Below, one piece after another: positions 1,604-34,526 of a stretch of 64,000 bases of DNA; positions within the stretch are counted from its first letter, which is position 1; the number at the start of each line of letters is the position of its first letter. The stretch is from Chrysophaeum taylorii. Taxonomy: Eukaryota; Sar; Pelagophyceae; Pelagomonadales; Pelagomonadaceae. The position numbers and the translations under genes were made by a program. The notes below the pieces were generated by a model that worked only from the letters and a program-made list of their open reading frames with translations, made no database searches and was not told where the DNA came from. Location: contig JAQMWT010000468.1 of NCBI GenBank assembly GCA_029834535.1, positions 62,001 to 126,000 on the forward strand. The letters run 5' to 3'.

Positions 1604-2342
1604 TGGCGGGCAAAGGGGCAAGCGTTGAGTGGATTTTAGAGCCAAGCTTGCGATCGCTGTTCCGCAAATAGCCAAGATAGCGACTATGAGACAGGTGATA
1701 GTCTTCTAGGGCCAAAAAAATACTTGTCCTTAAAAGAAAATTGGTCGCGGGCTGAATCGTAGGCGACACAGTGCGGCATAAGAAGGTCACACTAAGTGAG
1801 AAGGTTTCGAATGGCAGGAAGGTTGCCATGATCCGTGTCGACCTGGGGATAGGCCTGAACAAGCTAAAGGTAGCCTTGGAAAGGGTCCAAATGAATAGAC
1901 TTGTCGGCTGGTTTATCGGAAGCTCTGAGCGTGTAGGTAGATCCAAATGGATCAATAGAGGCCTTTTACTTGTTGACCTTGTTCTCAACTAGGAGGTTTT
2001 CTTCCGAGTATTTACCACCAGAGAGAAAGTGGATGTTGTAGTTGGATGATGAGTTTGTAAGGAATAACCTATGCGCAGATTGGTTAGTTTCGCAAATCGT
2101 AACATAATAGGACACGGGAGTAGGTGAGATAGGCAAGAGCCTTGCAAACACATTGTAGAGAGTAACAAATGCCTTGAGGCGAACGGGATTGGATGATCCC
2201 AGTAGTGGTTTATTGATACCCAAATTGTGGTATGTGCATTCGGATGCGACTTACGGGTGGTTTGTTCGAGAGCTTGTTGAGAATGGAGTCTAAACACGAA
2301 ACAAGAGATTCAAGGTTTCAAGATTCAAGGTTTCAAGCTCAC
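1604..2342 (-). mobile_element. Degraded 3' internal part of outer element
   Basis: Sequence between the 3' LTR and the last recognisable methyltransferase block. It has the AT-richer composition of the element and only short frames (up to 130 codons), none with a family resemblance I can name. An integrase or other pol remnant may be hidden here, but no motif supports that. Confidence 0.4.
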
Positions 2343-2558
2343 TCATACTTGACCGAACGGAACCTGTGCGGGAGTATGGTGGAAATGTTTTATAGGTGAA
2401 GACACCAGAGGAGGATCCGGGTAGAGTCGGATCCAGTCCGTAGCAAGGTCTGTTGATAACCAGAACGACTTAGGAACAGCGGTGATAACATCAGTTATCT
2501 CCAGAAACCGTTTTGGGTGTAGATTAGGCCAGGAAAGCATATCAATGTTGCCCGTGTG
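2343..2558 (-). mobile_element. Outer element: C-terminal block of the methyltransferase region
   Basis: The sense translation contains GNIDMLSWPNLHPKRFLEI. It corresponds to GPLDLLSWPNKRVYSFLDI in the inner element (around 11,850-11,940), where it follows motif VIII of the methyltransferase directly. Here the block lies on the outer side of the inner element's 3' LTR, while the motif VIII side lies beyond the inner element's 5' LTR. That shows the inner element landed inside this domain. Confidence 0.7.
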
Positions 2559-2948
2559 GAGAGATTTGACCCTCTCCGGGTACATGGTAGAGACTGCGTG
2601 CAGTCTTAGGCGTGTACAGACCATTCCGCTTGCCACATGTTACTACACAAGGTAGGGATTTAATTTCCTTAAGGACATTAGGTCCCATAGAAGCGTTTAC
2701 ACTGACAACGAGGAACGAAGCCTCTGTTAATTAAACAGAAAACCCCGTACCTGACGGTACGCACCTGGAGGCCTACTCCATGTTGGAAAAGAGCTTCAGA
2801 CTGGGTTCTTCATAGTCATGAAAATATAATTGCGGAAGGGTAAGGAAGGAAGGAGAGAGGGAAGCCGTACTACGGAGAGAAAACCCTCGTGTAGAGATAG
2901 GTGTCAAAATGTTCCAGTGTCGCACACATAATAGTGTAGCTCTCTGGA
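2559..2948 (-). repeat. 3' LTR of inner element
   Basis: 390 bases matching 15554-15940 at about 96% by eye. The shared core includes CCCATAGAAGCGTTTACACT and a polypurine-containing block. On its internal side it abuts a polypurine tract. On its outer side the methyltransferase sequence of the outer element resumes. Confidence 0.88.
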
Positions 2949-2957
2949 CCCCCTCAA
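2949..2957 (-). other. Polypurine tract of inner element
   Basis: On the sense strand TTGAGGGGG ends exactly where the 3' LTR begins (TCCAGAGAGC). This is the expected position of the plus-strand primer for LTR-element reverse transcription. Confidence 0.65.
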
Positions 2958-3065
2958 CGTGTGGAAACGGTTTATGCATTTCAGACGTTCTTGAGGCGGA
3001 ACTTGTGCAATATACATGAAAACAGTGGACAATGGAACAAACAACAACAGAACAGGACAAATTAA

Positions 3066-3728
3066 TTATGATGTCGAGCGTGTTGTGATGTTACGCAAAG
3101 AAGCTGTATCAGTATCCACAACATCAGATGTGTGGTCCAATTCATCTTCGCTATTATCGTCCAGTTCCTTTAACTCTGGAGAAGACGAATTATGATCATC
3201 AGAGGGTAGGTCGTTAGCAGTGTTGGTATTGTGCGTAGTCATTGCATCACTCAAGGTGACCAAGGGTGATATGACAGACGAAAGGAAAGACATAGCAGCA
3301 TCGGGTGTAAGAGCGTGTAGATCCAATGCAGGAATAACACGATCATGTGCATCAGACATAGCTGTGTGGAGGTGATGAGCTGCTGCGTCGATTTGAACTT
3401 GCTGTGCCTCATTATACGTATCTGGAGGGAGCTGTCCAATAGATGAGATAAGCGACCGAGAAATGATATGGACAAATACAGCAGAGGACGGGACTATGGT
3501 GTCCTGATGCATCTGAAGACTTGACAAGATGTTGTCTAACAGAGACACATGCTTGATGTTCTCGATCACTTGAGTGTTTAAATTTTCGTAAGTCTCTTGC
3601 ATCTGTGTGAGAGACGTTAGTGCAAGCGATAGTTGTTGATCTCGCGCCATCAATTGCTGTTCGGTATTAGTGAGACGTAAGGATAAAGACCGAACCTCTT
3701 CTTTTAATTGGTGTAAAGATTCAGCCAT
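3066..3728 (-). mobile_element. Inner element: 3' frame Y, coiled-coil protein
   Basis: An open frame of 220 codons between RNase H and the 3' LTR. It starts MAESLHQLKEEVRSLSLRL and continues with heptad-like leucine spacing through about residue 60 (a predicted coiled coil). A helical middle follows, then an acidic serine/aspartate-rich tail (SPELKELDDNSEDELDHTSD). No homology recognised. Ordinary copia elements have nothing at this position, though some plant lineages carry envelope-like or other additional frames there. There is no signal peptide or membrane segment to suggest an envelope. Confidence 0.6.
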
Positions 3729-3822
3729 ATTGTCGTTAGCTTTATCTGGCGTGGGCTCAGCGGGTTGATTGTCGATCGGCGCTGGTGAAACATCTTCAGA
3801 AGAGGTATCATCTGAAAAGACA

Positions 3823-5103
3823 TCAATTATGTCCGAAGGGTAGCCAACCTGGATTAGTACATTCTAAAGGCAGTTTGCTGGTCAAGTGATAGTTGACGAA
3901 ATTAAGCATTGGCGGTAACGTCTCGGAGGATATTACGTCAAATTGGTGGGAAACATCATTAACGAAGCGTTCGACAAGTACGTTAAGTAGCTCATCAGGG
4001 TTGGTCACTACACATACTTTATCTTCAACAGACTGTAACAAAGACCGAGCTGCTACAAGAATCTCAAGATTTACACTCGAAATAAAGGGCAGCTGAAGTA
4101 ACAGTATGGCGTTATCGTCAAGGTTGACAATGATTTTAGAGGCATCAACTTTAAGGGATGTCGCAGTCTGCATGATTGCCTCTTTGAGCTGCTTGTTAAT
4201 AGCAATTGACTTTCCAAGGCGGAGGATTATAGCTCTTGTGTGGGCAGCCGGATCATTAAAACAAGAGAGTTGGAAGGGCTGCTGACTGTTGCGAATTAAA
4301 GCGATCCCATGGTGTGACCGATTGCAAAGCACACAAATCAACAAAAAGAAAGGGCGTGGTACGTCAAAGCAGTGCGATGCGTGTTGCTCAGACGCGAGAT
4401 GATCCTCTATAATTTGGCGAATCCTGTCAGTTTTAAGTTCATCTTCATTGCAGATGATGAGCACGACTGGTGTGCCCGGCATATCAGTTTTATTGTAGCA
4501 CTTTGTACACGTCACATGTACTTTGACAACCCCTTTAATGGGTGGGACGCGATGAAAACGTATCCCCTCATTAGCAGATATAGCGGGGGCGTTTCGAATG
4601 CGCTTTGCTTTGACGCACAGCAATGAACTAAGATATTGTACATTATCTACAAACTCTGTCTGTTGTGCTTCCGTAAGCAGCTGCTGCAAAGACTTAAGCC
4701 AGCACCGGGGATCCTTCTGTTGCGGAATGAGGAAATTGGGTGGCGAAGAACCAAGAGCAGTAACGTTCCCGGACATCATCGCCAGTACGTCAAACTTACA
4801 GTGTTTGAGCAGGAAATACTCAGACTTTGCTGCTTGCGATTTAGACTGTTGTTGGGCAGTTGCCTTGGGCGTCACGGGCGTAGATTGATGTCCTTGCGCC
4901 ACCGACAAATAGGTTTGATGTTTCCGATTAGGGGAACTAGTCGGTGCAACGCTTGGAGTTAGAGCATTAAAAGGTGGAGATAGTGACAGTGTACCACCGC
5001 GACCACGGTTCAGGGTAGAGTGGCGTCGTCTCGCGGCATCTTTGTTTTTAGTGGGATTCATCATGAGAGGAATCTCCACATCACATTTTTTATTGCATTT
5101 CAC
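3823..5103 (-). mobile_element. Inner element: 3' frame X, unknown protein with Cys/His clusters
   Basis: An open frame of 426 codons just upstream of frame Y in sense direction. The N-terminal 90 residues are basic and low-complexity (NKDAARRRHSTLNRGRGG). The middle part has CTKCYN and CVLCNRSHHG about 65 residues apart, which could form a zinc-binding unit. The C-terminal part is helical and hydrophobic with no clear membrane segment. It is not recognisable as gag, envelope or any pol domain. Its place between RNase H and the 3' LTR makes it an accessory frame of the element. Confidence 0.6.
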
Positions 5104-5177
5104 ATTTTAGCGAGCCAGTATTCCTTTACATAGTAGGGTTAGTTTAAAGTCATTTCGGACATAATGAAGGGTAATGA

Positions 5178-5594
5178 TTAACCATCTTGTTGAGCTCTGG
5201 GTTGTTGTAAGCCGAGTAACGTGCGAAATCTGCTGAAGAGTGGAGCTCCAAAGGGTTTGGTAAATCCATCGGCGATGTTATGGGTACCGGAAACATGATG
5301 TAGACGTATGCGTTTTAACTGTACGTAGTCGCGTATACGGAACCAGCGTGTGCTGATAGCTTTAGCCTTAGTCGCGCTGTCGGGGTTATTAGATAGATGA
5401 ATAGCAGAGGCCGAATCTCCAAGTATAGGACTGTTACGTATGAACGACATGTCCGATGGGAGGGGATTGTCGTGAGCATCATAATCTAGTAGCAGGTCTT
5501 TCCCTGAAGGTTGGCCGAGATAGAAGTGAGGATTTATAACGAATGCCATTTCCGTTAGCAATTTGCGTAACCAGACCACATCATCGACATACAT
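5178..5594 (-). mobile_element. Inner element: RNase H, C-terminal part
   Basis: The sense translation has the copia RNase H pattern: DVVWLRKLLTEM, then GDSASAIHLSNNP, then RIRDYVQLKRIRLHHVSGTHNIADGFTKPF. These match the D-x-S-A-I/L-x-L-x-x-N-P and the V-x-T-x-x-N-x-A-D-x-x-T-K blocks near the end of Ty1/copia Pol. A LINE insertion separates it from the N-terminal RNase H part. Confidence 0.88.
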
Positions 5595-5617
5595 AATAAG
5601 GGCGATAAGTTCACTCT

Positions 5618-5999
5618 AGCTACCGTTGGTTGCGATGGAGGACGGCGCCTAACACGCTTGCTCCCTGCGGCGGCCCCGGCCGTCCCGGAGTGAGACGGTG
5701 CCTGCTCGCCTCCCGGGCTGGCCGGTTAGCACCCGGAAAGTCCGCGCTGGGATGGGGTTCGCTCGGTTGGGCAGAACGCGACGGACAGGTCGATTGTTCG
5801 TGGACCAACACGTTTGCGGCCTGCGACGCTCTTGCACGACTTCGCACAAGACCGCGCGCAGTGGCGGTCCGTCATCAACGAGTCCTCGTCCTTCGCCTCT
5901 GCCCCAACTGCGTGATTTTCCTCTGTGATTCCGGATCGGCTCCTGCCTGTCCGGCCTGGCTCCCATGCTCGGGAGAGGTCTGAAGTTAGTTAGTTAGTT
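5618..5999 (+). mobile_element. 5'-truncated LINE tail inserted in RNase H
   Basis: About 380 GC-rich bases ending in (TTAG)n, flanked by the direct repeat AGTTCACTCT (5608-5617 and 6000-6009). That repeat is a 10-base target-site duplication. It matches the reverse complement of 34.5-34.7 kb, where a longer copy of the same LINE lies. The last codons of the LINE protein can be read as HDFAQDRAQWRSV on the plus strand, followed by the 3' UTR and the tetranucleotide tail. Short length, one-sided truncation and tail are what target-primed reverse transcription leaves. The LINE clade cannot be assigned from so little. Confidence 0.82.
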
Positions 6000-6378
6000 A
6001 GTTCACTCTCATGCGTAGAAGTAGCTGTAATAGGTTGTAGCTTAGACTTCCAAGTGATGAGAGAACCAAACGAAAAAATAGCGTAACCGGTTGTAGATTT
6101 GCGGTCTTGTTCACAAGAGGGTGCATTATCGGCATCAACGAATAAAAGGGTGCATTATCGGCATCAACGAATGCGACCAGTGGATCAAAATTACCTGAAT
6201 TAACATGTTCTTTAGTGTAGTCCAACATGGTGGCCATGTCAGTACGATTACCGATAAGAAGTCGAAGATGGTCCATTAGAGCGGAAGAACCAGAGTACTA
6301 CCAGAGGCGAAGATTGCGATTTTCGGGCTTGCGCAAGTAGCGGAGCGTTCCTGTTAGTACTTGAACAAGTGCAGGCCA
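6000..6378 (-). mobile_element. Inner element: RNase H, N-terminal part and RT-RNase H linker
   Basis: The sense translation contains TLRYLRKPENRNLRL followed by MDHLRLLIGNRTDM and later LVAFVDADNAP. This corresponds to the copia stretch 'LRYLKGT...GY.DADWA'. It is bounded on one side by the LINE tail and on the other by the Helitron remnant. Confidence 0.75.
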
Positions 6379-6690
6379 GTAAGTTCACCTAGTCCCAATC
6401 TCTAACCCCAGTAAGTTCACCTGGTCCCAGCAAGTTTCATATAAGTTCACCTGGTCAGTAAGTTCACCTAGCTCACACCAACTCCTTTGAGCTCGTCGCT
6501 CTCGCCTCCGCCAATCTAAGCTGCTTTGATCCGCACGCGCCGTCCACCTTTGAGTTTACTCTCAAAACCCTTTACTCTAAAACCCCAGTATGTTCACCTG
6601 GTCCCAGTTTCACCTGGTCACTCAGTTCACCAAGTCCCAATCTCAAACCCCAGTAAGTTCACGTGGTCCCAGTAAGTTCACCAATAGTGC
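6376..6690. repeat. Tandem degenerate repeats, core AGTTCACCTGGTCCC
   Basis: Two clusters (about 6376-6478 and 6584-6686) contain roughly ten variants of AGTAAGTTCACCTGGTCCC, separated by a GC-richer stretch. They lie at the sense 3' end of the Helitron remnant and may be its subterminal repeats. Confidence 0.7.
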
Positions 6691-7470
6691 GCGTGTAGAC
6701 GCCGGGAGGGGGCTTATCGGTATTGCGCAGCACGTGTGGGGTAGGGTGGAGTCGTCGACCCAGAAGAGCATATTCTCGGGGTTGCCGATCGACAGAGAGC
6801 CACGTAGAGCTGGACGTGACAGAAGACGGGCTTGTGGGCAAGGGGACGCGGACCTCGCGGGGCGTCTGGTCCTGGCTCTTGTTGATCGTTTGGCGTAGGC
6901 GGGCCTTAAGGGATACAGGTTGGAGGAGCCTTGGTGACAACGACACGATCGATCATGTATCTGGTACCGTTGCAGTGGCCGTGCGACGGGTCGAGGTTGC
7001 GAAGACTTTAAGCTCGCGATCAAAGTCAGCATGCCGTTGGTTGTCAGGGAGTTCAAAACTCGACTGTAAAGAGCGAGGCGTCGGCTTCCGACCCAACCTA
7101 GTCGGCCGAAAAGAACTCCGACGCCTCGTCTTCGGGAAAAAAAGGCCGCGGTCATGCGCGCGTTGTCAGCATCGACAACATCGTTTCGACGGGGCGTGAG
7201 AATGGCGCGCTGAAAGAGCCGCCGCGGGTCGTGGAAACAGTCTGCGAGGTCGCCGTAGACGGCTTGGAGGATCACTGCCTGGCTCGCGCGCCAATCTGAT
7301 CCTTACCCTAAATCGAGGGACAAACAGACAAACATCTTTCATGCTCCCCACACACACACACACACCCCTCTTAGCAGTCGACATTTAAAGACAAACAGAC
7401 AAACAAACAAACAGCCACACACACCTCCCTCTTAGCAGTCGACATTTAAAGACAGACAGACAAACATCTG
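6379..7470 (-). mobile_element. Helitron remnant (Pif1-like helicase C-terminus) inserted in pol
   Basis: About 1.1 kb of non-copia sequence interrupts the element between RT and RNase H. In sense (minus) frames it carries the end of a Helitron RepHel helicase: FQRAILTPRRNDVVDADNARM (7150-7240), then FLNSLTTNG-like sequence (about 7040), QTINKSQDQTPREVRVPLP (about 6830-6890), NPENMLFWVDD (about 6750-6790) and GVYTRTI (about 6690). The family pattern is 'RAIL.P.N..VD..N', 'FLNSL...G.P.H', 'MTINKSQGQTL..VG..LP..VF.HGQLYVA.SR', 'GVYTRN'. These pieces lie in different frames, so the helicase is decayed. Canonical TC and CTRRT ends were not found, and the boundaries are set by where copia sequence stops and resumes. 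Confidence 0.78.
7310..7465. repeat. 61-base tandem repeat with CA and GACA tracts
   Basis: CTCTTAGCAGTCGACATTTA occurs at 7368 and 7429, each followed by a GACAAACA-type tract and preceded by a CA run. A third, partial unit lies just upstream (from about 7315). It sits at the sense 5' edge of the Helitron remnant. Confidence 0.7.
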
Positions 7471-9684
7471 TCGATTAGTAGTTAGGGCATGTAGAAATGC
7501 TGGATTATGCATTCCTCGAGAGCAACGACTAAGGCTTTGGGATAAATCAGGGCGACAAGCTAATTGGACAAAACTAAGCATGCCGAGTAAGGCGGAGAAG
7601 GTATGAAGAATAAACTTGCCCATATCAGAAGATGGCTCTCCAGTTTTATACGTGGCTGATGGTGACATCGGTGTGGAAGTGGGACGTAACTGCATTAAAA
7701 TGGGGTACTCTGCGAACAATGCGTCAAGTTTAGCCTGACAGTCCAGTGATATAGAGCCATCAGTTGTACGCGTTATGCGCAAGCCTAGGAGAGTATGGAC
7801 TTCCTCGAAGGTGTCGACTGAGTATTCCTTTTTCAGGGCTTGCTGGAACTCACGACGTAGAGTTTCCGAAGTACAAGTAATGACGACGTCGTCTACTGAG
7901 AGCGTGCAAATTAGAAATGTAGCGTCAGCTTGGACTTTAGCGCAAATGCATGTGTCTGTTCGAAATCGTGTGTAGCCTAATGAATCAAAGAAGCCGTTTA
8001 TGGTTTGATTCCAAAGGGCAGGGCTCTGACGCAATCCATAGAGAGATTTAAGTAGCTTTGGGAGACTGCGGCCTTGGTATTTAGTATCTTCGGGATCGAG
8101 AAGGTAAATGCCTTGTGGCAGTTTAACGTAGACATGCGAATCGATGGGAGCTTGAACAAAAGCGATAGGGACGTCGACATGATAGACGGGGATTCGCAGA
8201 TGAGCTGCTAGCGCCAAAACACAACGGACGCCAGTAAGCTGTGCCATAGGGCTAAGTGTGTTGAAGAAATCGGTGCCCAGAGAGGCTAAGAATCCTCGTA
8301 GGACCAGGCGTGCTTTATGTTTAATGTACTGACCAGCAGCGTTGGTTTTTATACGTAGGACGAGACGGGTGTCAATAGGCTTTGAGTTGACCATTGGCAG
8401 CGCTAGTTTAAAGCAGCCAAACTCAACAATGTCAAAAATCTCTTTGGAGATGGCAGCATCATAAGCTTTGCGATCAGCGTCTGAGAGACCTTTGAGGCAG
8501 TTCAACTCATATTCATCAATTTTGATATCTTTGGCTTGAATCTTGTATTCGTCCGAACCAACCGAGCTGGGGTCTTGAGTCGTCGTCAGATGAGTAATTG
8601 CGTAAGAAGCGACATTATCGGGCAGATGAGCGTGATCAGGATCTTCGACGAGTTGAACGACTAGTAGAGGAGCATCACCAAGATGGGCCTCAATGTAATG
8701 CGATTGCACGGTGATATAGTCTTCGATGGCGGAGATATGAGGCTCGGAAGCACCATAAGAAGCGTCATTATGATCCAAAATGGAGTGGGGCGTGAACAAA
8801 GCATCAGCATATTGAGCGGGAGGAACTTGAACGGCGTGAGCATGTTCAGAAATTAAATGAACGAGAGCTTGAGGAAGGTGAAAGTCTGCAAGGTTGACGT
8901 CGTCGCAGAGGTGAACATGGGGGGCATCCGGCGATGGGTGGCTATGGCTCCTATGACACATAACTGAAGAGGACTGTGAAATCGCTTGGTGCACATGGTG
9001 ATGAAGGGATGGTGTAAATTCCCCCTCTGGAGGTATAGCCGTCCAGTGGATGCCATGAGCGAGATGAAGGGAGTGGAGGGTGGGGTCGCAGAACGTTATG
9101 TACTGCTTGGAGAGGTCATACTTGAAGTCGGCAAGCGCACCACCGGCTTGTTTATAAGCGGCAACAGTAGGCGAAGCAATACGAGTAAGAACATCCTTGA
9201 GATTGGTTTTGCGACGAGGCTGAGGGTGATGAGGACCACGGGTGAGACGGAGGACATCCTGGGAATAGAGAGACCGATAAGATGGTAAAAGTGGCAGAGT
9301 GTCGGGAGACACTTCAGATGTAGGTGTGGTGGTGGAAGTAGCGGTTGCAGGAGCAGCTGGGGCAAATGCGGGAGCGGGAGAGGGAGCATGGAGATGAGAA
9401 GAAGGAGTCCCCCTCTCATGGTCAGTGTCGGTAGGCATAGCATTCCCCCTCTGCGCCGCATCATTGGGGGTGCTGTGAACAGAGAAGGGAATGTCGGGTG
9501 AAGGTGCGGGAGGTGGATGCTGTTCATAATCAGGAGATTTAGAAATAAGATGAGGAAAAGTCAGTTTAGAGGAAACACGGACTTGACCGTTTTCAGGATT
9601 AAGGACAACATCGGCTAAATGATTAACATGGGGTGTTATTAAAGATTTTATAACGTTAGCACCGCAAGTAGCGTAGGACGACAT
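7432..9684 (-). mobile_element. Inner element: integrase tail and reverse transcriptase
   Basis: An open frame of 750 codons. The first 60 residues (VLNPENGQVRVSSKLTFPH) resemble the end of a copia integrase. A long low-complexity linker rich in Pro, Ala and Ser follows. The RT domain begins near residue 395 with KPIDTRLVLRIKTNAAG and KARLVLRGF. It continues with YHVDVPIAFVQAPID (catalytic-Asp block), LLKSLYGLRQSPALWN, the SVDDVV block (family YVDD) and LACRPDLSQSLSR. These are hallmark Ty1/copia RT motifs. The last dozen or so codons run into the Helitron remnant. Confidence 0.92.
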
Positions 9685-11694
9685 CGGGGTTCATATTTAT
9701 GAAATTCGTTAGGTTCCAAATGCAGATAACAAACAGAACCAAAAGTTAGTTTGAGGTAGTCTTGTTGGGGAACATTACATTGGTCTAACAAACTTGTTGG
9801 GGGCTTAGGACTTTATTGTAAAAGTACAAGTTCGGAAACGTTAGGGAGGAGATTATACGATTGGACAGCATGTATAACAGCCCACGGGTAGTGTGGTGCC
9901 GATCTGTTAGGGTGACCTTTATGGATACATAAGCATATGCCTGAGTCGTGTAGACGCGGCAGTGGCTATGTGACCAACAGCGGCTTCGACTCATGATTAA
10001 AGTCATGCCAGTAAGGGGGAACGCGGACATGTTAATACCATGCTCCACACGGAAGGGGGTTGTAACATGCTGAGATAAATAGGGTTTAAGGAATCACAAT
10101 AAATTTGTTTGCGTTGTACATGAACATAAGTAGAACAAAAATTGCGGACAAACTCAAGGGCGTTACAAATCCGCTGGAGTTAGTGCTACGACAAAAGTAC
10201 ACTAACAGAAATTTAGAAATGAGACAACTTGAAAACAATGATATGTCGAAAGGATCCCCATTCCGAGAGCACAGATACGTAACCACCGTCACATGCCCGC
10301 TTCACCAGGTTTTTTTTCGAATGATGGTTGCTTGATAGGTGGTGTGGATGAGGAAAGCGTTTTTATGAATCGTACAATCCACACAGAACTTACGGTAGGG
10401 TACGTCAGATGGTGGTGTCCAGGACTGGCAATAACCTGAACAGCTTTTATGGCTTGAGAATCACTGGAATGGTGAATGTTGTGAAAATTGGTAGCTCGTT
10501 GTTGCGCATCTCGAAATGCGAGGGTGCCCCTGGCATGGACTTTCTTATCGAAGGGCGCATGCTTCGGACTGTCTTGGCGTTATGAGGTATTTGTTTTTCT
10601 AGCATGATATATCTGTTACAGCATGTTAGAGAGGAAAGCGCTGAGTCACGAATCAATATGAAAAGAAGTTCTGTGGTAGCCATGTATCACAACATGAGAG
10701 TTTTTTATTGGATATGCAACATAGTAATGGAACTCTGGTGTAATGTTAAGGATGTATCTGTTGGGAAATATAGCCTAGAAGAAGTTGACCTATGTTTGGT
10801 TAGAGGAGCGTGATCAGGGTCAAACGATGGTGATAGTGTTAATATACGCAAGTCATAAACAAGCTGGATGTTTATAAATTGTATGATATGTTCCAGCTGA
10901 ATAGCATTTGCGATGATATCCACATAGGTCAGGGGACAAAGACAAAAGAAAATGATTTGGTACGCAGCAGTTATTGGCGCGTGCCAATTCGCGAGTTGAG
11001 TAGTGTCGAATGCGATCGAGTCGTGGATCGTAGACCAGCATACTAGCAAATCCACGAATGGCGTGAGTGTATGTATATAGAGTGAACTTTGGCACCCATC
11101 TTCCTATCGCTTGATGTTATAAAGCCCAAATATCTGCTTTGGCAAATGCATGTCACTTAAAGTCATTTTGTCGATAACCGAGACGATTTTCCTGAGGGAA
11201 GACAAAGAATCGTGAAATACAGGAGAAGTATAGGAAACCCAGCTTGTACTAGACGACGCGTGTCTTGATTTTCATTATTATGATGGCGCTTGGCAAAGCC
11301 AAAGAAAACGGTAATGGTCGAGAGAAGCCAGTCATCGATTCCGGCATCGTGTGTTAAAGGGCGCGGTTTCGCCAAGCTTATGTGTGCCTGGTATTTAGAA
11401 AGATTAGTTAAACCGTTATGTCTCCGCTCATGTCTTCCACCGTGATGTCGATGGATGAAGCTATGATTTATTTAAGAACCTGTGAGATGGTTGGTTAGAT
11501 CCGATGTTGTAATACGAAAGGACAGGTAATGTGATGGATTTAGGGAATAATCGTCCCATAATATTATAGAGGAGCAACGCTTTGAGTTCAATAGGGCATC
11601 CATGCAAAGTGGTTTTCTTGAATTAGTCAAGAATCCCAGGCGAAAGTTAGAAATGCCCTCCATTTCATCTTGACTGGGATGTTCGACTGTTTTA
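9685..11694 (-). mobile_element. Inner element: unrecognised stretch where integrase is expected
   Basis: In a copia element with this order the integrase zinc finger and catalytic core should lie here, between methyltransferase and RT. Only short frames (under 120 codons) are present, and I could not read a convincing HHCC finger or DDE core. The region is AT-rich and looks heavily decayed. Confidence 0.4.
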
Positions 11695-12489
11695 TTAGAG
11701 TGCAGACGAAGGACGCATAGTTAAGGTTTCAAGCTCAGTCACAGTTAAGCGCACGATCCGTACGACTGGTGCCGTAGGTTTGTGTGGACGATGGTATGTC
11801 AGAAAGACCTGCGTCCAAGGTTCGTCGACTATTAACTTGCGACTGATGGAATTAGCGTGGTCTGCAATATCCAGAAAGGAATAGACTCGTTTATTAGGCC
11901 ATGAAAGCAGATCAAGAGGGCCGGTGTTATATTTGCGAGCGACGAGGATCCATCTTTCTCTGGCTTGATAATCTCCACATAAATAGCATGCAGGTCGGTC
12001 ACATATGTCCACCGTATAGTGCATCGTTGAGAAGATGAGATTAGCAACTGTATATGATCTTCATACGATGCGGAGTGTGGTGTCATTTCCATGAAGAGAA
12101 CAAGCGGCTTTAAAAGCTCAAGTACACTTAGAGCACTTGGGAACCAGGAATCATCCATATCGCGCTCGAAGGTGGTGGATCTCCCATTGATTATGTTGCG
12201 ATTTGTGCATGGTGATGTCAATTCCACTATGTCAGTGTAATATCGTGCACGTTCAACGTCCGATGCTCGATGGCTACAAACTTAGGTAAGGATGGGAAAA
12301 CTTCGATGGAATTACCGTCGTCTTCGTAGTGTGCGTGATATTGTCGTCGCTCTCAACAAGAACTTTAACGTTGATGTTGATTTGCAAGTCATTAGAAGCG
12401 CAAGCCAAGAATGCAGGAGTGGACATCCCAGAGCAAAGTAAAGTTACTGGGTATTCGTGGGCTAGTAGATAAGTCGCTGTATGGAGCAA
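11695..12489 (-). mobile_element. Inner element: cytosine-C5 DNA methyltransferase domain
   Basis: The sense translation shows the ordered motifs of a C5-cytosine methyltransferase. Motif I is VTLLCSGMSTPAFLA (family 'hxLFxGhGGxxxxL'). Motif II is KVLVESDD. Motif IV, the catalytic-cysteine region, is ELTSPCTNRN (family 'PPC/SPC'). Motif VI is PLVLFMEMTP (family 'ENV' strand). Motif VIII is GDYQARERWILVARK (family 'QxRxRxxxxxxR'). Then comes a conserved block GPLDLLSWPNKR. The first two motifs and the remaining ones lie in different frames, so this copy is broken. The domain follows the protease and precedes the pol part. By family knowledge such a domain would methylate cytosine in DNA, and a role in protecting or regulating the element is inference. 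Confidence 0.75.
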
Positions 12490-12824
12490 ACGTTGTAACC
12501 TTGCGTCATACAGGAGGTGGGAATCTTGGTATGTAAGGCAGCTGCGAATGCATTGACTCCAGATGTTTTAAGCCATGGGACGTAAACGCCCGTTCCATGA
12601 GGGTGGAATATAGTTTTACATTTCGCGTTGTTCAAAAGAAGCCAGTCTGAACTGTAGTGAGCGAAGTTCCATTACGCGCTTTTGCTTGTTGTAGCGAGTA
12701 AATTGGTAGAGTTGGCAACAGGTTACGAGTCTAAACAAGTAATCTTGACATTATCATCAATTTTACTCTGATTATGATTGTCCTTTAAATTCAACCCATG
12801 TCATGTATACCGTCATCTTCCGAG

Positions 12825-13080
12825 TCATACTGATGATGTGCAGATCGGGATCGTTATGGTCGTTTTGCTTGGGTAGAAAAGCGCAACGTCTAGCTTTACA
12901 TATCCCACATTTGGATGCTTTGGGAGAGCGGGAATGACGGTCCTTATAATCATGCATGTGGATTCTCTGCGTATCCGCGCAGTCTGGATAGCAGGTGATA
13001 AGGACTCGGGTAGCTTTACGATGTGGATAGGATCAGCATAACGTTTAAAGATAACGCCGTTGAGAGCACACGTGTCCATA
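12825..13080 (-). mobile_element. Inner element: protease-region fragment
   Basis: The sense translation PAIQTARIRRES..., VIPALPKHPNVGYVKLDVALF aligns with the stretch after the aspartic-protease motif in the outer element (PVVQTATGQQQ..., VTPLPDHPGIGYVKIDYALF). The active-site block itself was not found intact here. Confidence 0.6.
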
Positions 13081-13599
13081 TCCTGGCGCTAGTCATTAGC
13101 GGCAAATTGTACTGTTGTACAGTTTCGCATTGTTGCATAACGGCATGTGTTGAGCTTTGACCACACGTACTGTGTCATGAAACTTTGCGTTTGTTCGGAA
13201 GGCACAACGACGAGTGTAAACCAGTGTTTAATTTTGGTAGCAACACAGGGGATCTGTACCATCTTCATTTTCTTCATTGGTTAGATTACTGGGGAGCTCA
13301 GAGTGCGAGGAAGTTTCCCGAGCTTGACGACGAACGATGCATTCTGAGCTTTAGCATTTATGTGCTGCAATAGCGGCTGAGGGATGTTATCGATTTCATC
13401 ATCTTTAATGGACAGTGTGGAAACATTTTCTCTGTATCAGCAGTCCTCTGCTCCGCATCACTGGGGACGCTTGGACAGATGTTTCAGTTTGATACTTTTC
13501 TTCTGAAACAAGAGATCCTTATCGGCTTCTAAGAGGTTCATATGGTATTGGACATATCAACTCGAGATAAGCGAGATGAACTTGGGTGGCTTCGTCAGG

Positions 13600-14900
13600 A
13601 TCTAGACTGTGTCGAAGCTTGAGTGCGGTTGTCCAGAGGGTACTCAAGCTTTTTCGCTCCTCCTGTACCATTTAGAGTCGAGGTTTGGTTGGATCGCTTC
13701 CTGTAATTTACCAAACAGGTGGCGAAGACTCAACTTGATAAGTAGCCCGGTCCATAAGACATTATTAGAGCGTGCATTACGGTTAGAGGAAGATGAGTAG
13801 ACAGGACGATCGAAGCTGGTACCTTTGACGTTATAATTTGAGGGTGGACGATAGCGTACGACGTCACGGGGAAATTGTCGATGCTTTGTCTTTGCATTAC
13901 GAAGCTTACGAGCGAAGCCCGACCGTCCAGCTACGCTAACAACGAGAGCGTTGTTTAGAAAGTCGTGGGATTGATGAATAGTATCCATCAATAATACCTT
14001 AGGTGGCTTTAGCGGTAGTACCGGGATGTAAGGGATCCAGGGCGGGTTTATCCAAGCGTCGGTTAGAAGAAAACTTTGTCTCATTGTATATCTTTAACGA
14101 TTCCAATAGTGGACGAACGTCGTTAGGATCAACTAGCTTTAAATTCGGATCGTGACTCGACTTGTTGTTACCGCCGTGTCTCGTGAGTTTACACCATTCC
14201 AATAAAGATTGAGAATGCGCTCGTGATCCGAGGGATTAGCATATAGACGGTAGATCTCCTCGTGAGCTAAGAGTGATTATGGAGTTATTAAATTGGATTG
14301 ATGCTTCATCATTATTTAATTGTTTTGCTGAGATTGAAAGGCAAGGATTGTTCGACAAATACATGGGCACCAATTAACATTTAGAGACATTCGATTAAAC
14401 TGAGATTTAAGCTCAGTTGCATCTGTACAAGACACTGTCCATAGTAATGGTAGGCTGCATTACAGCACGTAATTTATTGGGATGTGTGTATTGCATTTTT
14501 CTTTAGTTGAGGCCACATAGCGAGAGCGGGCTTTTCCTGGGACTCCAATAAAGAATGTGTACAAGAAACCAGCATAAGTTTCAGTGTTTGATCCAATCGG
14601 CATTAGAGAGACCTGTAAAGGATATGTTGGTTAAAGATGAATCATACGCAATTGATTTAGGAAACGGGTATCTATAAAGTGAGGACACGTTTGACATCCT
14701 TATTTAATTCAGGACGAACAAGATTACGCGACCTTGGTAGTGTCGTTCAAGATTATTACGGACATCAACTGTAGATTGATGAGTTGATGCCGTCTTAAAT
14801 ATTCGGGCAGGCATCTTCATCGGTAAGTTTAAATCGTTAAACTTGTTCAGCTTTCCATTGAGCGAAGATGATCTCAACTTCTTGTTCAAGGTTGATTATA
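13600..14900 (-). mobile_element. Inner element: Gag-like region (decayed)
   Basis: Pieces such as MEWCKLTRHGG, LKIYNETKFSSNRRLD, WIPYIPVLPLKPPKVLL and TSFDRPVYSSSSNR correspond in order to VEWCVIYETR, LDLYNSVSNDAEDKRRLD, WIPYVEGLSTHQKPKVLL and NDRPVYARSFDRSSR of the outer Gag. Similarity at protein level is clear but low (roughly a third), so the two elements belong to related, distinct families. Frames are broken in several places. Confidence 0.65.
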
Positions 14901-15537
14901 TTCCGACATTCGGGTGTAAGCTTCATGAATCGAAGCAGAATAACGCGTCCACATTGGACTTGTCATATGCCTGCGAAGCACCTCAATTTGCAAGCTCACC
15001 TTGGTTGAGTTATCTTGGCCCACCCTGCGTAATCTTATCAACGGATTTGTTCTTGTTTGCGTATCCGTGGTGGATATTTTTTTGTTTTGACATACATTGA
15101 CCTATTAAGAGATAGGTTATGGATTGATAGACATATTCACCATAAGAATGAGGGGTTTCAAGTGCGGGTTCTATGTACGCGTTATTTTAAACGGGCTTAT
15201 TGACAAGACCAAACAAATCAACATGCTATTTAAAACAGGGTGACTTGAGACTGAATGTGGATTAGTTCTCGAGCAGTCAGTCTTTGTTGGGGAATGGAAG
15301 GAAAACCCGTACAAGTTTCCGCGGCTTGTATAGCTTTTTTTAATTTTATTGGTTATGCGAGTGCATGTGACCAGTGACCGACCCAACTCGGTCACAAACC
15401 AAATTAACTGGTGGGCACATACCGTCACAACAAATATGTACATTAGACCACCGCCAAACACATTGTCGCATTGTACTCGTGATCGCGTAAATTGATCACC
15501 CATTTAAACGTACAACATTGGGCTGACACACCTACAT
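14901..15537 (-). mobile_element. Inner element: 5' leader
   Basis: Sequence between the Gag-like region and the primer-binding site, presumably the untranslated leader and Gag start. No motif recognised. Open frames are short. Confidence 0.45.
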
Positions 15538-15553
15538 CTGGGCCCATAACCTG
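15538..15553 (-). other. Primer-binding site, initiator tRNA-Met anticodon arm
   Basis: The plus strand reads CTGGGCCCATAACCT directly next to the 5' LTR. That is the anticodon stem-loop sequence of eukaryotic initiator tRNA-Met (…CUGGGCCCAUAACC…), so the element's sense strand is complementary to it. Drosophila copia primes with a 5' half of initiator tRNA-Met cut in the same arm. Confidence 0.82.
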
Positions 15554-15940
15554 AGAGATTTGACCTCTCCGGGTACATGGTGGAGACTGCGTGCAGTCTT
15601 GCGTGTACAGACCATTCCGCTTGCCACATGCTACTACACAAGGTAGGGATTTTAAACTCCTTAAGGACATTAGGTCCCATAGAAGCGTTTACACTGACAA
15701 CGAGGAACGAAGCCTCTGTTAATTAAACAGAAAACCCCGTACCTGACGGTACGCACCTGGAGGCCTACTCCATGTTGGAAAAGAGCTTCAGGCTGGGCCC
15801 TTCATAGTCATGAAAATATAATTGCGGAAGGGTAAGGAAGGAAGGAGAGAGGGAAAGCCGTATTTCGGAGAGAAAACCCTCGTGTAGAGATAGGTGTGAA
15901 ATGCTCCAGTGTCGCACACATAATAGTGTAGCTCTCTGGA
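15554..15940 (-). repeat. 5' LTR of inner element
   Basis: 387 bases, about 96% identical to 2559-2948. The primer-binding site lies on the inner side. On the outer side the methyltransferase sequence of the outer element (QSRERWICVARRYN) runs straight up to it. Confidence 0.88.
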
Positions 15941-16333
15941 CTGCGTTATACCTACGAGCTACACAGATCCACCTCTCTCGCGATTGGTAATCCCCACAGA
16001 GATACGTGGGATATCTGTCGACAACGTCAACCATGTAATCGAGGGTGGCATGCATAAGATTGACTGCGTAAACATGATCACGGTGCACCTGTTTATGCGG
16101 AGGGGTCATTTCCGATAGAAGAACGAGGGGCTTGAGCATTCTTGATGACGGTAAGCATGCAATCAAATAGAGCATCGTCGAGTAGGCTGACCAAATCGGA
16201 ACTTTTGGTGTTCTTCAGGAGATTCCGGTTTGTGCATGGGGGTGTGAAATCTATGACACCACAGTACAGTTCACGTCTCTCCTCCTCAGTGATAGAGTGA
16301 AGATAATGAAGGATGGGAGAGATTGGAAAATTA
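15941..16333 (-). mobile_element. Outer element: central methyltransferase motifs (IV, VI, VIII)
   Basis: The sense translation gives GVIDFTPPCTNRNLL (motif IV region), LKPLVLLSEMTPPHK (motif VI) and YLCGDYQSRERWICVARRYN (motif VIII), each matching the inner element's domain. Lengths and spacing agree between the two elements. The domain is split by the inner element on one side and by a small TIR insertion on the other. Confidence 0.75.
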
Positions 16334-17153
16334 CCGTCATTGGCCGAGCCGTTCCAACTAGGTGGCCGTTCCAACGTCCCGAAAAACTGCGATTCCAGAA
16401 AATCAAACTCAACCAATCATGCGAAATTTTTTGACCCTAGAAAATCAAACCCAACCAACCAGGCGAACGCGATCAACCTGAGCAATCCAACCAAACCAAC
16501 CGCCAAACTAGCCAAAACCAACATCCAGCGTACTCGGTCGCGTCGTCTTTTGGGGCCTGCAAGACACGCGCGCCGTTCCTTCCGACCAACGCGCATCATA
16601 GTGGCCAAAAATCTTCGCATGGAGATGACGAACACGTTCTCAGTTGCTCTCCTCCAAAAAAATAACGAAGTTCCAATAGAGGCTATGCATGTCGCTTTGC
16701 TGTAAACGGTGCAGCGGCTTCAGCCGGAGCCGCCGCCGCCGTTGTCGTCGCTGGTGCCGAGGCTGGTGCCGTTGCCGGTGCTGGCGCTTGCGGCGGCGCA
16801 GGCTCTGCAGCGTATTTCATTAGGATTTCCTCGACGGCAGCGTCGTGAATCTGGCGTGCAGCTCGAGCTGTCTCCTCCATGGTTCAGGAATGCGTCGGCG
16901 AAGAGACAAAAAAATAAAAATAATAGAAAAAAGGCGTGCGTCGGCGAGGAGAATGAATCAAACCAAACCAACCAAAAAAGCATACGTCGGCGAAGAATGA
17001 ATCTAACCAAACCAACCTGGAGACGCGTCGCGCCAAGATGATAATCCAACCCAACCAACTGCCTGCGAAGAATTATATCGAAATATCCAACAAAAACCAA
17101 ACTTACCCTTATTTTATTTTAATTTGAGATCAAACCAGGTTAGATCGGCTCGG
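16334..17153. mobile_element. Small TIR element with a Pro/Ala-rich reading frame
   Basis: About 820 bases bounded by inverted copies of a sequence of about 21 bases whose core is ACCGTCATTGGCCGAGCCG. The left copy starts at 16334. The inner copy at about 17135-17153 carries some changes. It interrupts the methyltransferase region. Inside are degenerate direct repeats of GCGTCGGCGAAGAATGAATC followed by CAAACCAACC. There is also a GC-rich frame on the minus strand starting at 16880 (MEETARAARQIHDAAVEEIL, then Ala/Pro repeats) that looks like a piece of a host exon. No transposase is present, so it would be non-autonomous. A target duplication is not evident, and the family is unassigned. Confidence 0.5.
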
Positions 17154-19095
17154 CCAATGACGGTCGCATATCTGTGGAATCGTCTACGTAACATACGAAC
17201 AAAATATCATCAGACTCGACAACAACTCTGACATTGATGTTCAAGGTAAGTCGTTATTAGCTTGTGACAGAAACGCGGGGTTGATAAACCAGAACAAAGT
17301 AAGATGACCGGTGTTTTGCGAGACTTGCCACGTTCAACAGATAAGAACACTGGTCGTGGCCGTGATACCGGTGTTGTATTGTTACTTACGTAGTCATTTC
17401 GCTTGCGAAGGTTAAGTAGTAAAGGACGGAGCCAGGGACGAGATGGAAGTTTAGTCATACGGTACGTGTAATAATGACCAAGGTTCCTAGTTATATCTTT
17501 TAAGCGGAAACGCCAACGACCGCGTGCAAGAGTATAAGGCAAACAAGGCAACGCAGGCAAGTCATGATCTACAAAGTGAATGGGCACCTTGACATCTTTG
17601 TCTATGAGACTTGTGATATGGGACAGACTTGGCTGATCGCAGCTATTAAACGTAAATGTCCGTTTAGCCTTGTTCCACTCTGGAGCAGAGGATAAAGAGG
17701 TGACGAGATTTAACTGCGAAAACAAGTAGTCAATTTTGACATAGCCTATTCCAGGGTGATCGGGCAATGGCGTGACTATGTTCTTGGTTAGCATTGTATG
17801 CGAGACCTGTTGTTGACCTGTGGCAGTTTGGACAACGGGGGCGATTTGGGATCAAGAGGTGCAACATGATTGGGAATCGCGAAGTCAAATGTAGTCATCA
17901 GGATATTGATGCAACTATCTAGGTAGAGGAATTGATAATGAAGAGGGAGGTTATGATCACTCATATACTTGGTTAAAGGCATCCTGCTATGGACACTAGT
18001 AGCGAATGCTCGCTGCAAACAAAACTAGGTTGACTCATGAGCTTTGATGTGACAATTACTCTGGTGAACCAGATAGGGGCTACCGGGCGAGTCGGTTCCC
18101 CATTGTCCTAACCCAACTAATTTCGATGTCGAATGGCGAGAGTCCAGTGTTCGTAGCTTGAGTTGGGGAAGGACTGTTCGACTGCGCCGCAGCTTGAGCA
18201 GTGCTGTGACGGCACATAGCTGCTGTCACACGAGACGAAAGCTGATTTAGCTGTTCCGGAGAAAGTTGGGCTTCAGAGAAGTTTACCGACTCAGTTGGAA
18301 CAGAAGTGGTGTTAGTGGGACCATCTGAGCCAGCAGACTTAGAAGTGCGTTCAGAAGCAGTAGGTTGCGCTGGCCCATAGTTTAACGACGTTTCGGTCGA
18401 TAGCAGATGTGTGTGAACATCAAGCATAATGCCTTCGGCATACTGAAGCTGATCGTTAATGCGAAAGACTTCAGTGTTATCGTCCGAAGAAGTAGTCGAG
18501 ATGATGGCGGCAGAATGTAATAACGTCTCAACCAGCTTATTAATGTTTTCCTGCAGTTGAACCGTGGTCGCGTTCTGCAAAGTATGCTGAGAGAGCTCTC
18601 TGCATTGATCCTTACAGGCATGCATATTATGTCTCGTGCGATCGAGAAACTTCATATCGGATCGAGAAGAGCGATCGAAGCTTCGTGCATACACAGGTCG
18701 ATCGTTGGATTGACCAGGACCACGTGGTTTGGTAACATACGAATCACCAGAGCGATAGTAACTCAGATCACGGTGAGAGAATGGTTGACTGGCGTCCTTA
18801 GTGTTTCGGGGGCGTCTGGCATTGAACTGAGGTTTAGACGGCCCAGAGGCTGCGGCAGTAAGTGAAGCGAACACATGGGCAGCATGGTCAGGCTCAGATT
18901 CAGTAGTATCCAGCAGCTGAGTTAGTAGGACCTTCGGTTTTTGATGTGTTGACAGACCCTCCACATACGGAATCCAGGAGACAGAAGGATCAAGGCGCCT
19001 TTTGTCTTCAGCGTCATTGGAGACGGAATTGTAGAGGTCGAGCGAAAATTCTAAGACATGTGATGAGTTAGACGGATGACAAAATCTGTCAGCTC
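17154..19095 (-). repeat. Copy A of the gag-protease-methyltransferase segment of the outer element
   Basis: Nearly identical to 21190-23180 over about 1.95 kb (with the TIR insertion, about 2.35 kb from 16735), in the same orientation. It contains the C-terminal half of Gag (18080-18964), the protease region and methyltransferase motif I. Compared with the other copy it differs mainly by small changes. It ends at 19095, where the sequence turns back on itself. Confidence 0.85.
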
Positions 19096-20745
19096 CAGGT
19101 TGAGTTTAAGATGTGTGTCGAGACACGTTATTCGAGTTGTTCGACCGATATTTTATCATCTGTCTAACTCATCACTGTTTTAGAATTGCCGATACGAGGG
19201 CGCAGTTTCGAGTAAAAGGTGGAGGGTCTGGTCATTAAAATCGAGCGTCCTACAACCAGCCGCTGATACTACCGACACCTGACATGTGTTCGCTCACTTA
19301 CGTCGTATTCTCTGGGCCACCAACCGTTCACTGGACGCTCGACGGCTGCCTTCTCCGCAATGATCTGAAGCCAGCCATGCTCTGGTGATTGTGGCGCACA
19401 AACCACGTGGGTCCTGGTCACAACGATCGACCTGTGTAGCGCAAGTTTCGACGTTCTCTCCCGATATGCTCTGATCGCACGACATAATATGGCTCGTGGT
19501 GATCAATGCAGAGAGTTCTCTCAGCGCAGAACGCGACCACGGTTCACAGAAAACATACGTTACTGGCGCATTGCTTGGCCGCCATTTCACTGAAGTCTTT
19601 CGCATTAACGCCAGATGCCGAAGGCATTGCGCTTGATGCATCATCTGCCCGATCGAAACGCCTGCAATAGCACCGCTTGTTCGCTACCAGATGGCTCACT
19701 CAACACACTTCTGCCCCACCGAGTCGGTACGCTTCGAACAGCTGTCTGTAGCAGTTATAGTGTTTACCAGCTATGTTGGCGTAGCCGAACACTTCTCAAC
19801 CGTTGTTAGATTTCTCCGCCATTGACATCGAAGGCGAGGCAATCGACTCCGCTCGGTAGCCTTTATTTGGCTCACCAGAGTATTGTCGCTATCAGCTCAT
19901 GTCAACCTAGCTTTGTTGTGTGTTATTCCTCTGCCAGTGTCCGCATGCTAATCATGCGGCGAGTGAATATAATCTTCTTCATTATCAACATAGCGCGCAT
20001 CAATACCCCATGACTATTTACTTCTCGCGATTCCCACCGTTGCACCCCGGTCACGGCCGTCACAAGAACCATGCCATGATCACCCGGAATATTGTCGTAT
20101 TGACATGCCTGTTTTCGCAACCAGTTAACTTGCTCACTTTCTGCCCACATTTCATGTTTACTGTGCTGTGATCAGCCGTCAGTCCCATATCACGTTCTCA
20201 TAGGTGCCCACCACTTTGCATCATGACTGCTACCCACTCTGTACGCGGTCGTTGCTTGTGCATATAACAGAAGAACCTTGGTCATTAATACACGTAATGT
20301 AGCGCCTACTGTTCTGGTCTCTTCGTTTCACCCCGCAGCGAACGATACGGGGTAACAATACACCACCACTGTTTCGACCGTCGTTCTGCCGAACGTGGAA
20401 ATACCGGTCACCTTACTTGTTCTGGTTTGATCACCCCGTGTTTGTCACAAGTTAATCCACGACTTAGCCTTGAATATCATCGATTGTTAAAGAGCCTGAT
20501 GATATTTGTTCGTATGCCATGTAGACGATTCCAAGATATGTTGTTGTTGCCGAGCGATTTGATCTCACTGAAATAGCCGTAAGTTTGTTGGACACGATAT
20601 ATCGCTGCAGTTTTTGGGCTGAGACGACGCGCCTCCAGGCTGGTTTGCCAGATCTCATCGGTTGTTCGTTTGGCCTGAGACGTTTTTCTATTATTTTCAT
20701 TTACTTCAACACGATCGAACAATAGGAGGCATGCATCGCCAAATT
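19096..20745 (+). repeat. Inverted, strongly diverged copy of the same segment
   Basis: On the plus strand this stretch follows the sense order of the outer element. Gag appears at about 19150-19700 (the segment around TCTAACTCATCAC and GATCAATGCAGAGAG). The protease part appears at about 20040-20150 (GTTTTCGCAACCAGTTAA is identical). Methyltransferase motif I follows at about 20440-20550 (TCTGATGATATT, TAGACGATTCCAAGATATGT), and then part of the TIR insertion up to about 20745. Similarity is patchy, perhaps 70%, with many scattered substitutions and small indels, unlike copies A and B, which agree closely. Confidence 0.75.
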
Positions 20746-21190: not shown

Positions 21191-21193
21191 AGG

Positions 21194-22102
21194 TTAGATC
21201 GGCTCGGCCAATGACGGTAACATATCTTGGAATCGTCTACGTAACATACGAACAAGAATATCATCAGACTCGACAACAACTCTGACATTGATGTTCAAGG
21301 CTAAGTCGTTATTAGCTTGTGACAGAAACGCAGGGGTTGATAAACCAGAACAAAGTAAGATGACCGGTGTTTTGCGAGACTTGCCACGTTCAACAGATAA
21401 GAACACTGGTCGTGAACGCCGTGATACCAGTGGTGTTGTATTGTTACTTACGTAGTCATTTCGCTTGCGAAGGTTAAGTAGTAAAGGACGGAGCCAGGGA
21501 CGAGATGGAAGTTTAGTCATACGGTACGTGTAATAATGACCAAGGTTCCTAGTTATATCTTTTAAGCGGAAACGCCAACGACCGCGTGCAAGAGTATAAG
21601 GCAAACAAGGCAACGCAGGCAAGTCATGATCTACAAAGTGAATGGGCACCTTGACATCTTTGTCTATGAGACTTGTGATATGGGACAGACTTGGCTGATC
21701 GCAGCTATTAAACGTAAATGTCCGTTTAGCCTTGTTCCACTCTGGAGCAGAGAGGATAAAGAGGTGACGAGATTTAACTGGTTGCGAAAACAAGGCGTAG
21801 TCAATTTTGACATAGCCTATTCCAGGGTGATCGGGCAATGGCGTGACTATGTTCTTGGTTAGCATTGTATGCGAGACCTGTTGTTGACCTGTGGCAGTTT
21901 GGACAACGGGGGCGATTTTGGGATCAAGAGGTGCAACATGATTGGGAATCGCGAAGTCAAATGTAGTCATCAAGGATATTGATGCGCAACTATCTAGGTA
22001 GAGGAATTGATAATGAAGAGGGAGGTTATGATCACTCATATACTTGGTTAAAAAGGCATCCTCGCTATGGACACTAGTAGAAGGAATGCTCGCTGCAAAC
22101 AA
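21194..22102 (-). mobile_element. Outer element: aspartic protease joined to methyltransferase motif I
   Basis: An open frame of 302 codons. LYLDSCASISL near residue 35 fits the retroviral/copia aspartic protease active site (family D-S/T-G-A, here DSCA). A beta-rich region follows (GIGYVKIDYALF, PVKSRHLFI). Near the end comes PVILLCSGLSTPAFLSQAN with NVRVVVESDD, which are motifs I and II of a C5-cytosine methyltransferase. Protease and methyltransferase are therefore translated as one polyprotein part. The frame ends at the TIR insertion. Confidence 0.75.
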
Positions 22103-22188
22103 AAACTAGGTTGACTCATGAGCTTTGATGTGACAATTACTCTGGTGAACCAGATAGGGGCTACCGGGCGAGTCGGTTCCCCATTGTC

Positions 22189-34481: not shown

Positions 34482-34526
<45 letters not shown>

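Follow-up and report, generated by a model that had tools for sequence, protein, structure and literature searches.

Copia elements in the genome of the pelagophyte Chrysophaeum taylorii carry a real C5-cytosine methyltransferase (MT) domain that is under selection, and they belong to a wider assortment of long terminal repeat (LTR) retrotransposons with an MT in the same genome. Four families of such elements, spanning the Copia and Gypsy superfamilies, are present in hundreds of copies, many of which have long open reading frames. Beyond the architecture, the mechanism that we infer is that of a Ty1/copia element which has captured a C5-cytosine MT, makes it by readthrough of a UGA-C stop, packages it with reverse transcriptase (RT) and uses it to methylate its own cDNA, a reading that on balance we think probable. 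Retrotransposons that encode the class of enzyme used for silencing them are a puzzle, to which a further lineage is added here, and this genome is a good place for asking why mobile elements capture the silencing chemistry of their hosts.

The DNA analysed, referred to as the window, is a stretch of 64,000 nucleotides from a C. taylorii assembly of 70.8 Mb in 697 contigs. A preliminary description of it, made from the sequence alone, had guessed at a stramenopile host, and C. taylorii is indeed a stramenopile. The published C. taylorii genome (71 Mbp, 702 contigs) draws on Illumina, Nanopore and PacBio reads, and a word search of the main text of that paper finds zero words starting with 'repeat' or 'transpos' (PMC10366177).

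Organization of the Family-1 Elements

The window holds one whole element of what is here called family 1, inserted into an element of family 2 (Table 1). The start of its 5' LTR is common to L013, L015, L018 and L024, copies of the same family, and this LTR aligns with 2559-2949 at the other end of the element over 393 columns, at 95.7% identity and with 11 substitutions. The flanks of the element were set out for a target-site duplication, one end lying within a noisy stretch. RT is of the RVT_2 type (PF07727), at 1.7e-42 in L015 and 7.7e-42 in the family-2 copy L050 as well as in the window. An integrase lies upstream of RT: in L011, rve (0.011) and SH3_retrovirus (9.1e-5) both match below the Pfam cut-off, and the same order is found in L050, where a 1691-aa frame runs from MT through integrase (rve 0.0076) to RT. 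A putative protease motif stands at the expected place, reading D-T-C-A-S in family 1 (YADTCASQHV in L015) and D-S-C-A-S/T in family 2, and Pfam gives no protease match in the upstream frame of L015 (ORF1). Thus the preliminary description was right to call the element Ty1/copia in type, given the RVT_2 match in L015, the order protease-MT-integrase-RT and the LTR pair, and right to place the MT between protease and integrase, with Gag-protease upstream and integrase and RVT_2-type RT downstream. Where an aspartic protease has D-[ST]-G at its active site, the motif of both families (L015 ORF1; window 21197-22105) reads D-[ST]-C-A-[ST].

Table 1. Elements, domains and motifs located in the window (positions are those of the window).
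Feature	Position	Strand	Basis or remark
Family-2 MT, later part (NTGNIDMLSWPN..., motif IX region), far side of insertion	1969..2556	-	sequence match
Complete LTR element of family 1, carrying later insertions; domains in Copia order, Gag-PR-[UGA]-MT-IN-RT-RH	2557..15940	-	LTR pair; colinear with L015, L018, L024
3' LTR	2557..2948	-	match to 5' LTR
RNase H piece	5993..6297	-	phmmer with L015 RT-RNase H frame
Open 752-aa ORF, reverse transcriptase RVT_2	7432..9690	-	PF07727, 1.2e-39
Spacer and integrase region, frames broken	9651..11471	-	phmmer pieces
C5-MT domain, motifs I-IX and possible X, frames broken	11464..12505	-	phmmer with L015 MT, 1.4e-55, and further pieces
Motif IX, VRLTVTE	11754-11734	-	after motif VIII
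Motif VIII, YQARERWILVARK	11970-11932	-	place checked
Motif VI, FMEMTP	12095-12078	-	place checked
Motif IV, SPCTNRN	12215-12195	-	place checked
Motif II, LVESDD	12360-12343	-	place checked
Motif I, LLCSGMSTPAFL	12441-12406	-	place checked
TGA then CGC, between protease and MT	12506..12508	-	conserved in families 1 and 2
Gag-protease region with broken frames	12509..14703	-	phmmer with L015 ORF1
Putative primer binding site, GGTTATGGGCCCAG	15538..15551	-	directly after 5' LTR
5' LTR	15552..15940	-	start TCCAGAG, end CTCTCCA in other copies
Family-2 MT, part up to motif VIII, interrupted by family-1 insertion	15942..16416	-	sequence match
Noisy repeat of 20783-23203, a probable assembly artefact	16729..19118	-	17 gaps in this copy vs 1
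Family-2 protease (LDSCAS), continuing into motif I (LLCSGLSTPAFL) and ESDD of the MT	21197..22105	-	sequence match
Family-2 Gag ORF	22192..24201	-	sequence match

Family 1 is abundant across the genome. A 149-aa piece gives at least 151 matches (150 scored of 845 candidates), with some copies counted twice because they match in two pieces, and the signature of the junction upstream of the MT is found at 168 genome places. Such numbers speak against a chance origin of the motifs. Sixteen family-1 stretches were taken, and the MT was aligned in 14 of them (L021 and L022 were left out), with 89-99% identity to the first aligned copy. In L011, MT and integrase share a single 1464-aa frame that reaches into RT; in L015, a 769-aa upstream frame is followed by TGA, a 993-aa MT-integrase frame and then an RT frame.

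Sequence Motifs of the Methyltransferase Domain

The five C5-MTase motifs first pointed out in the window are all present, on the minus strand and in the right order, between 12.57 and 11.46 kb. They are spread over two frames there because this copy is broken by frameshifts; elsewhere, 13 of the 16 family-1 stretches have the four motifs I, IV, VI and VIII together in a single open frame, 778-1464 aa long, and in L023 (721 aa) motifs I and IV alone passed the motif test. The catalytic PC is kept in all 14 aligned family-1 copies, as is QxRxR apart from one R, which, like the E of motif VI, is kept in 13.

In C5-MTases in general, motif I follows the pattern FxGxG, and motifs IX and X follow RxLTxxE and GNxV. 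The element domain departs from the family in several places: motif I reads LCSGMS or LCSGLS in families 1 and 2, with the final G changed to S; ENV reads EMT; and motif X is just NIMGRLFP-like, with no clear GNxV. Motif IX is present as RLTVTE. Activity of the MT is not assured given these departures in motif I, ENV and motif X, which would also suit an inactive relative of C5-MTases kept as a DNA- or RNA-binding or structural part of Pol. Such a role is very unlikely in our judgement, since families 1 and 2, with MTs that are 51% identical, have both retained the catalytic PC, E and QxRxR.

Profile Evidence for C5-Methyltransferase Ancestry

The Pfam DNA methylase profile PF00145, by which the domain was initially expected to be recognized, gives no significant match in family 1, where 2 of the 14 copies match below threshold (best E 0.28) and the unrelated Beta_helix_2 also matches 3 of the 14 (best 0.14); for a family-2 copy the value is 0.073. 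It does recognize related elements, those of family 3 (2.4e-8, in L044) and family 4 (7.2e-6). The preliminary description had named as refuting the lack of a significant PF00145 match in this or any related copy; that lack holds within family 1 itself but not once related elements are counted. A phage profile named DNA methyltransferase, phrog_116, matches residues 40-213 of the family-2 copy L028 (2.1e-6), and matches L050 (0.01), L030 (0.078, family 2) and L009 (0.21, family 1) in the same register as L028; L020 has no match at E<=1. It matches 7 of the 9 members of an MT alignment (A2) and, weakly, 9 of the 14 family-1 copies (best 0.064), for which it is the sole family matched of 38880. 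The DNMT2 gene of the host matches the same profile at 6.6e-22.

With hhalign, alignment A2 against 60 DNMT2 sequences scores 28.5, where column shuffles have a mean of 16.5 (sd 2.8) and 1 of 300 reaches the score; the reversed alignment does not reach it, and the profile alignment pairs motifs I-VIII. The program's own probability for this comparison is 6% (E 0.0059). In the same test family 3, which Pfam certifies, scores 28.1, reached by 0 of 300 shuffles. An HMM of DNMT2 gives no positive score to single sequences of families 1 and 2, a result that is uninformative here because the HMM also misses the certified family 3. Among other sources, NCBIfam profiles do not match the MT; a PDB sequence search with the MT found no MTase; a protein-database search with families 1 and 3, confined to candidates of limited length sharing exact words, turned up no relative at E<=1e-3; and a search of viral contigs gave nothing useful.

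In principle, the motifs could be a product of chance or those of a different protein family, as the lack of a significant PF00145 match in family 1 might suggest. This is so improbable as to be close to negligible in view of the phrog_116 match in family 2 with its same-register matches in family 1, the DNMT2 shuffle test and the two further MT-bearing LTR families that pass PF00145, and chance motifs were rejected on the shuffle count and the phrog_116 value. On these comparisons, we take C5-MTase ancestry to be established for family 2, and family 1 to share it through its kinship with family 2 along the entire domain, and the original assignment of the domain to the relatives of C5-MTases is upheld.

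Families 2, 3, and 4

In the window, the family-1 element interrupts the MT domain of an element of family 2, with junctions after motif VIII (15942) and at 2556. Family 2, as represented by L050, is 51% identical to family 1 in the MT (345 residues), 61% in RT and 52% in integrase, and a search of the genome gives at least 150 matches (150 scored of 616 candidates).

Two further families came to light in a PF00145 search of the assembly, which returned at least 124 matches (123 scored of 474 candidates). In a sample of family 3 (L035-L047), an LPCQH motif is present in 13 of 13 copies and a protease-like DGGAS motif, read by eye, in 10 of 13; Pfam gives no protease match for the latter. The family is of Copia type, the RT of a further copy (L052) being 33% identical to that of family 1 (4e-42). 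Its MT and those of families 1 and 2 may stem from one capture or from separate ones: the hhalign score between them does not stand out from shuffles, 66 of 300 of which reach it, and is lower than that of the reversed alignment, and a pairwise BLAST of the family-2 and family-3 MTs gives E=0.002. In family 4 (L049; G000:C5:524469-525338), whose domains were read in L049, the PF00145 match lies just upstream of a Gypsy-type RVT_1 and RNase H; there are at least 135 matches to this family (135 scored of 997 candidates), with open frames of up to 3067 aa.

Selection and CpG Content

The MT is under strong purifying selection, with the same mean as integrase. Across 13 family-1 copies (78 pairs), the mean dN/dS is 0.046 for the MT and 0.125 for the spacer that follows it, and for integrase it is 0.046 (21 pairs long enough). 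The pair L015-L011 has an MT dS of 1.28 at a dN/dS of 0.034. Single pairs vary, the integrase of L015-L012 reaching 0.304.

No mutational trace of CpG methylation is seen in families 1 and 2, by either CpG depletion or transition ratio. CpG observed/expected is 0.91-1.02 in these families vs 1.32 in the half of the window that carries genes, and CpG transitions exceed other C transitions 1.23-fold in 155 close pairs and 1.18-fold in all 231, the pairs sharing copies and hence being non-independent. Absent CpG decay neither supports nor excludes present-day methylation.

These measurements bear on a role in silencing, in which the MT would not protect cDNA and would instead mark inserted copies or competitors, so that copy number or damage to the host is limited. 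Many copies do coexist, and a host C5-MTase, presumably DNMT5-like (L034), could maintain such marks. We regard this role as improbable: the equal mean purifying selection on MT and integrase suggests that the MT is needed in the element's own cycle, and a mutational CpG trace is lacking.

The UGA Junction and the Putative Primer Binding Site

In family 1, TGA precedes the MT in 24 of 24 distinct copies (25 rows, of which L001 is the window copy) and at 168 of 168 genome places with matching flanks. The second count was rejected as decisive on its own; it is weak alone because a control codon beside the UGA is nearly as fixed (98 of 100 among the matches listed, of 164). The stronger argument for readthrough is that the stop and the C after it persist between families whose MTs have diverged to the extent given above: in family 2, TGA followed by C is found in each of the 6 copies that could be read beyond the window (L026, L027, L028, L030, L032 and L050), L029 and L031 being unreadable, and both family-2 copies in the window are without the UGA. 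In those family-1 frames that were read out in full, the MT frame has its first Met within motif I, which argues against reinitiation. UGA-C is a leaky stop context. Taken together, the UGA-C between Gag-protease and MT-Pol suggests stop readthrough. RNA folding after the UGA is ordinary in the 4 usable sequences (z -0.5 to 2.0), in a test that does not cover pseudoknots.

After the LTR end, the 14-mer GGTTATGGGCCCAG occurs in family-1 copies and in L050 of family 2, and it may be complementary to initiator tRNA. As a separate observation, L053 contains at 1501-1523 a stretch resembling a tRNA, with a CAT anticodon stem-loop of initiator type, which has 4 exact genome places and in which neither ARAGORN nor Rfam calls a tRNA.

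Possible Role of the Methyltransferase

In the favoured reading, Gag and protease would be produced first, and occasional readthrough of the leaky UGA-C would add the Pol extension, with the MT first and then integrase, RT and RNase H. As the first domain of this extension, the MT would be packaged alongside RT at Pol stoichiometry, and would most likely methylate new element cDNA, or DNA at the insertion site, before or at integration.

The substrate might instead be RNA, either the tRNA primer of the element or its genomic RNA, as with DNMT2 on tRNA. The profile comparison with DNMT2 is above shuffles, the MT of the Gypsy family 4 matches the DNMT2 HMM at 34.9 bits, a primer-binding-site-like 14-mer adjoins the LTR, and the DNA is without a CpG signature. 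Nevertheless, DNMT2 is the only large reference set compared, so the resemblance is not specific, and neither family 1 nor family 2 scores positively with its HMM; moreover, MTs of retrotransposons in Symbiodinium (SymbioDIRS) act on DNA in yeast (PMC5890265). Action on RNA thus seems unlikely to us, and methylation of the cDNA is the reading retained.

Several distant LTR lineages, namely families 1/2 and family 3 on the Copia side and family 4 on the Gypsy side, each have an MT upstream of integrase or RT, which raises the idea that the host attacks or rejects unmethylated cDNA, much as in restriction-modification. We consider this doubtful; if true, carrying an MTase would be close to a condition for the success of an element in this host. 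C. taylorii is in culture (NIES-1699), and the purpose of the MTase therefore becomes testable.

Comparison With Known Elements

Capture of C5-MTases by retrotransposons in dinoflagellates and a charophyte had been mentioned in the preliminary description, and correctly so: MT-bearing LINE and DIRS elements of Symbiodinium and Gypsy elements of Klebsormidium, two lineages, were described in 2018 (PMC5890265). A later article speaks of 'LTR Copia and DIRS' for DNMT3 elements, citing that study, where Gypsy is described (PMC12344493). KnitGypsy-Dnmt3 of Klebsormidium nitens is, like the present elements, an LTR element with a C5-MTase in its Pol polyprotein and under purifying selection; it is Gypsy and of the Dnmt3 class, whereas families 1 and 2 are Copia. 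Family 4 resembles it in class, having a Gypsy RT with the MT upstream, and its MT matches a DNMT2 profile, DNMT2 being the class compared. SymbioDIRS-Dnmt3 and SymbioLINE-Dnmt likewise represent hundreds of retrotransposon-borne MTs in an alga, and the SymbioDIRS MTs methylate CG in yeast (PMC5890265); those elements are DIRS and LINE, in contrast to the LTR Copia and Gypsy elements of this pelagophyte.

For the stop codon, the nearest parallel is Tca2 of Candida albicans, in which Gag and Pol are likewise split by one UGA stop. Tca2 has a potential 3' pseudoknot and the sequence flanking its UGA is insufficient alone, whereas folding energy is ordinary here in a test blind to pseudoknots; the abstract mentions no MT domain (PMC2194720). 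Among stramenopiles, Sola1-1_Ec32 of Ectocarpus is also a transposon with a DNA MTase domain, but it is a DNA transposon whose predicted N4C or N6A methylase is a separate gene on the opposite strand (PMC12477816). A literature search for Copia elements with a C5-MTase or for pelagophyte elements (including PMC6338049, PMC9998398, PMC12477816 and PMC9033089), with most subscription papers and bioRxiv outside its scope, returned no other case. As far as searched, the Copia setting, the position of the MT between protease and integrase and the presence of four families in one genome are new.

Host Genes and Assembly Quality

The genome of C. taylorii also has C5-MTases of its own, which differ from those of the elements in giving clear PF00145 matches and in having no element domains in Pfam scans of both frames. 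A DNMT2-type gene (L033) is 100% identical to CTAYLR_008533 of C. taylorii, and the further C5-MTase L034 matches PF00145 at 7.9e-18 and has a weak RING match.

The frame breaks of the window copy look like read noise rather than decay, given that comparison with L018 shows 182 deletions between 9.5 and 15.5 kb (with 18 insertions and 221/5966 mismatches) and 0 between 7.5 and 9.5 kb (with 6 insertions and 48/1993 mismatches). In other copy pairs, gaps number 5-20 per aligned piece of 2.8-8.8 kb. Parts of 19.35-20.54 kb are an inverted repeat of parts of 21.2-22.9 kb. The simplest reading of the assembled sequence is that the contig was probably patched, at 9.5-20.7 kb of the window, with a read that had been left unpolished and is folded back in part.

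Two other repeats occur in the window. One, of up to ~380 bp, is inserted in the element at 5618-5999, part of it recurring inverted at 34507-34676 and in L014, L037 and L047. The other is an exact 60-bp tandem repeat at 49571-49690, in the gene-rich half.
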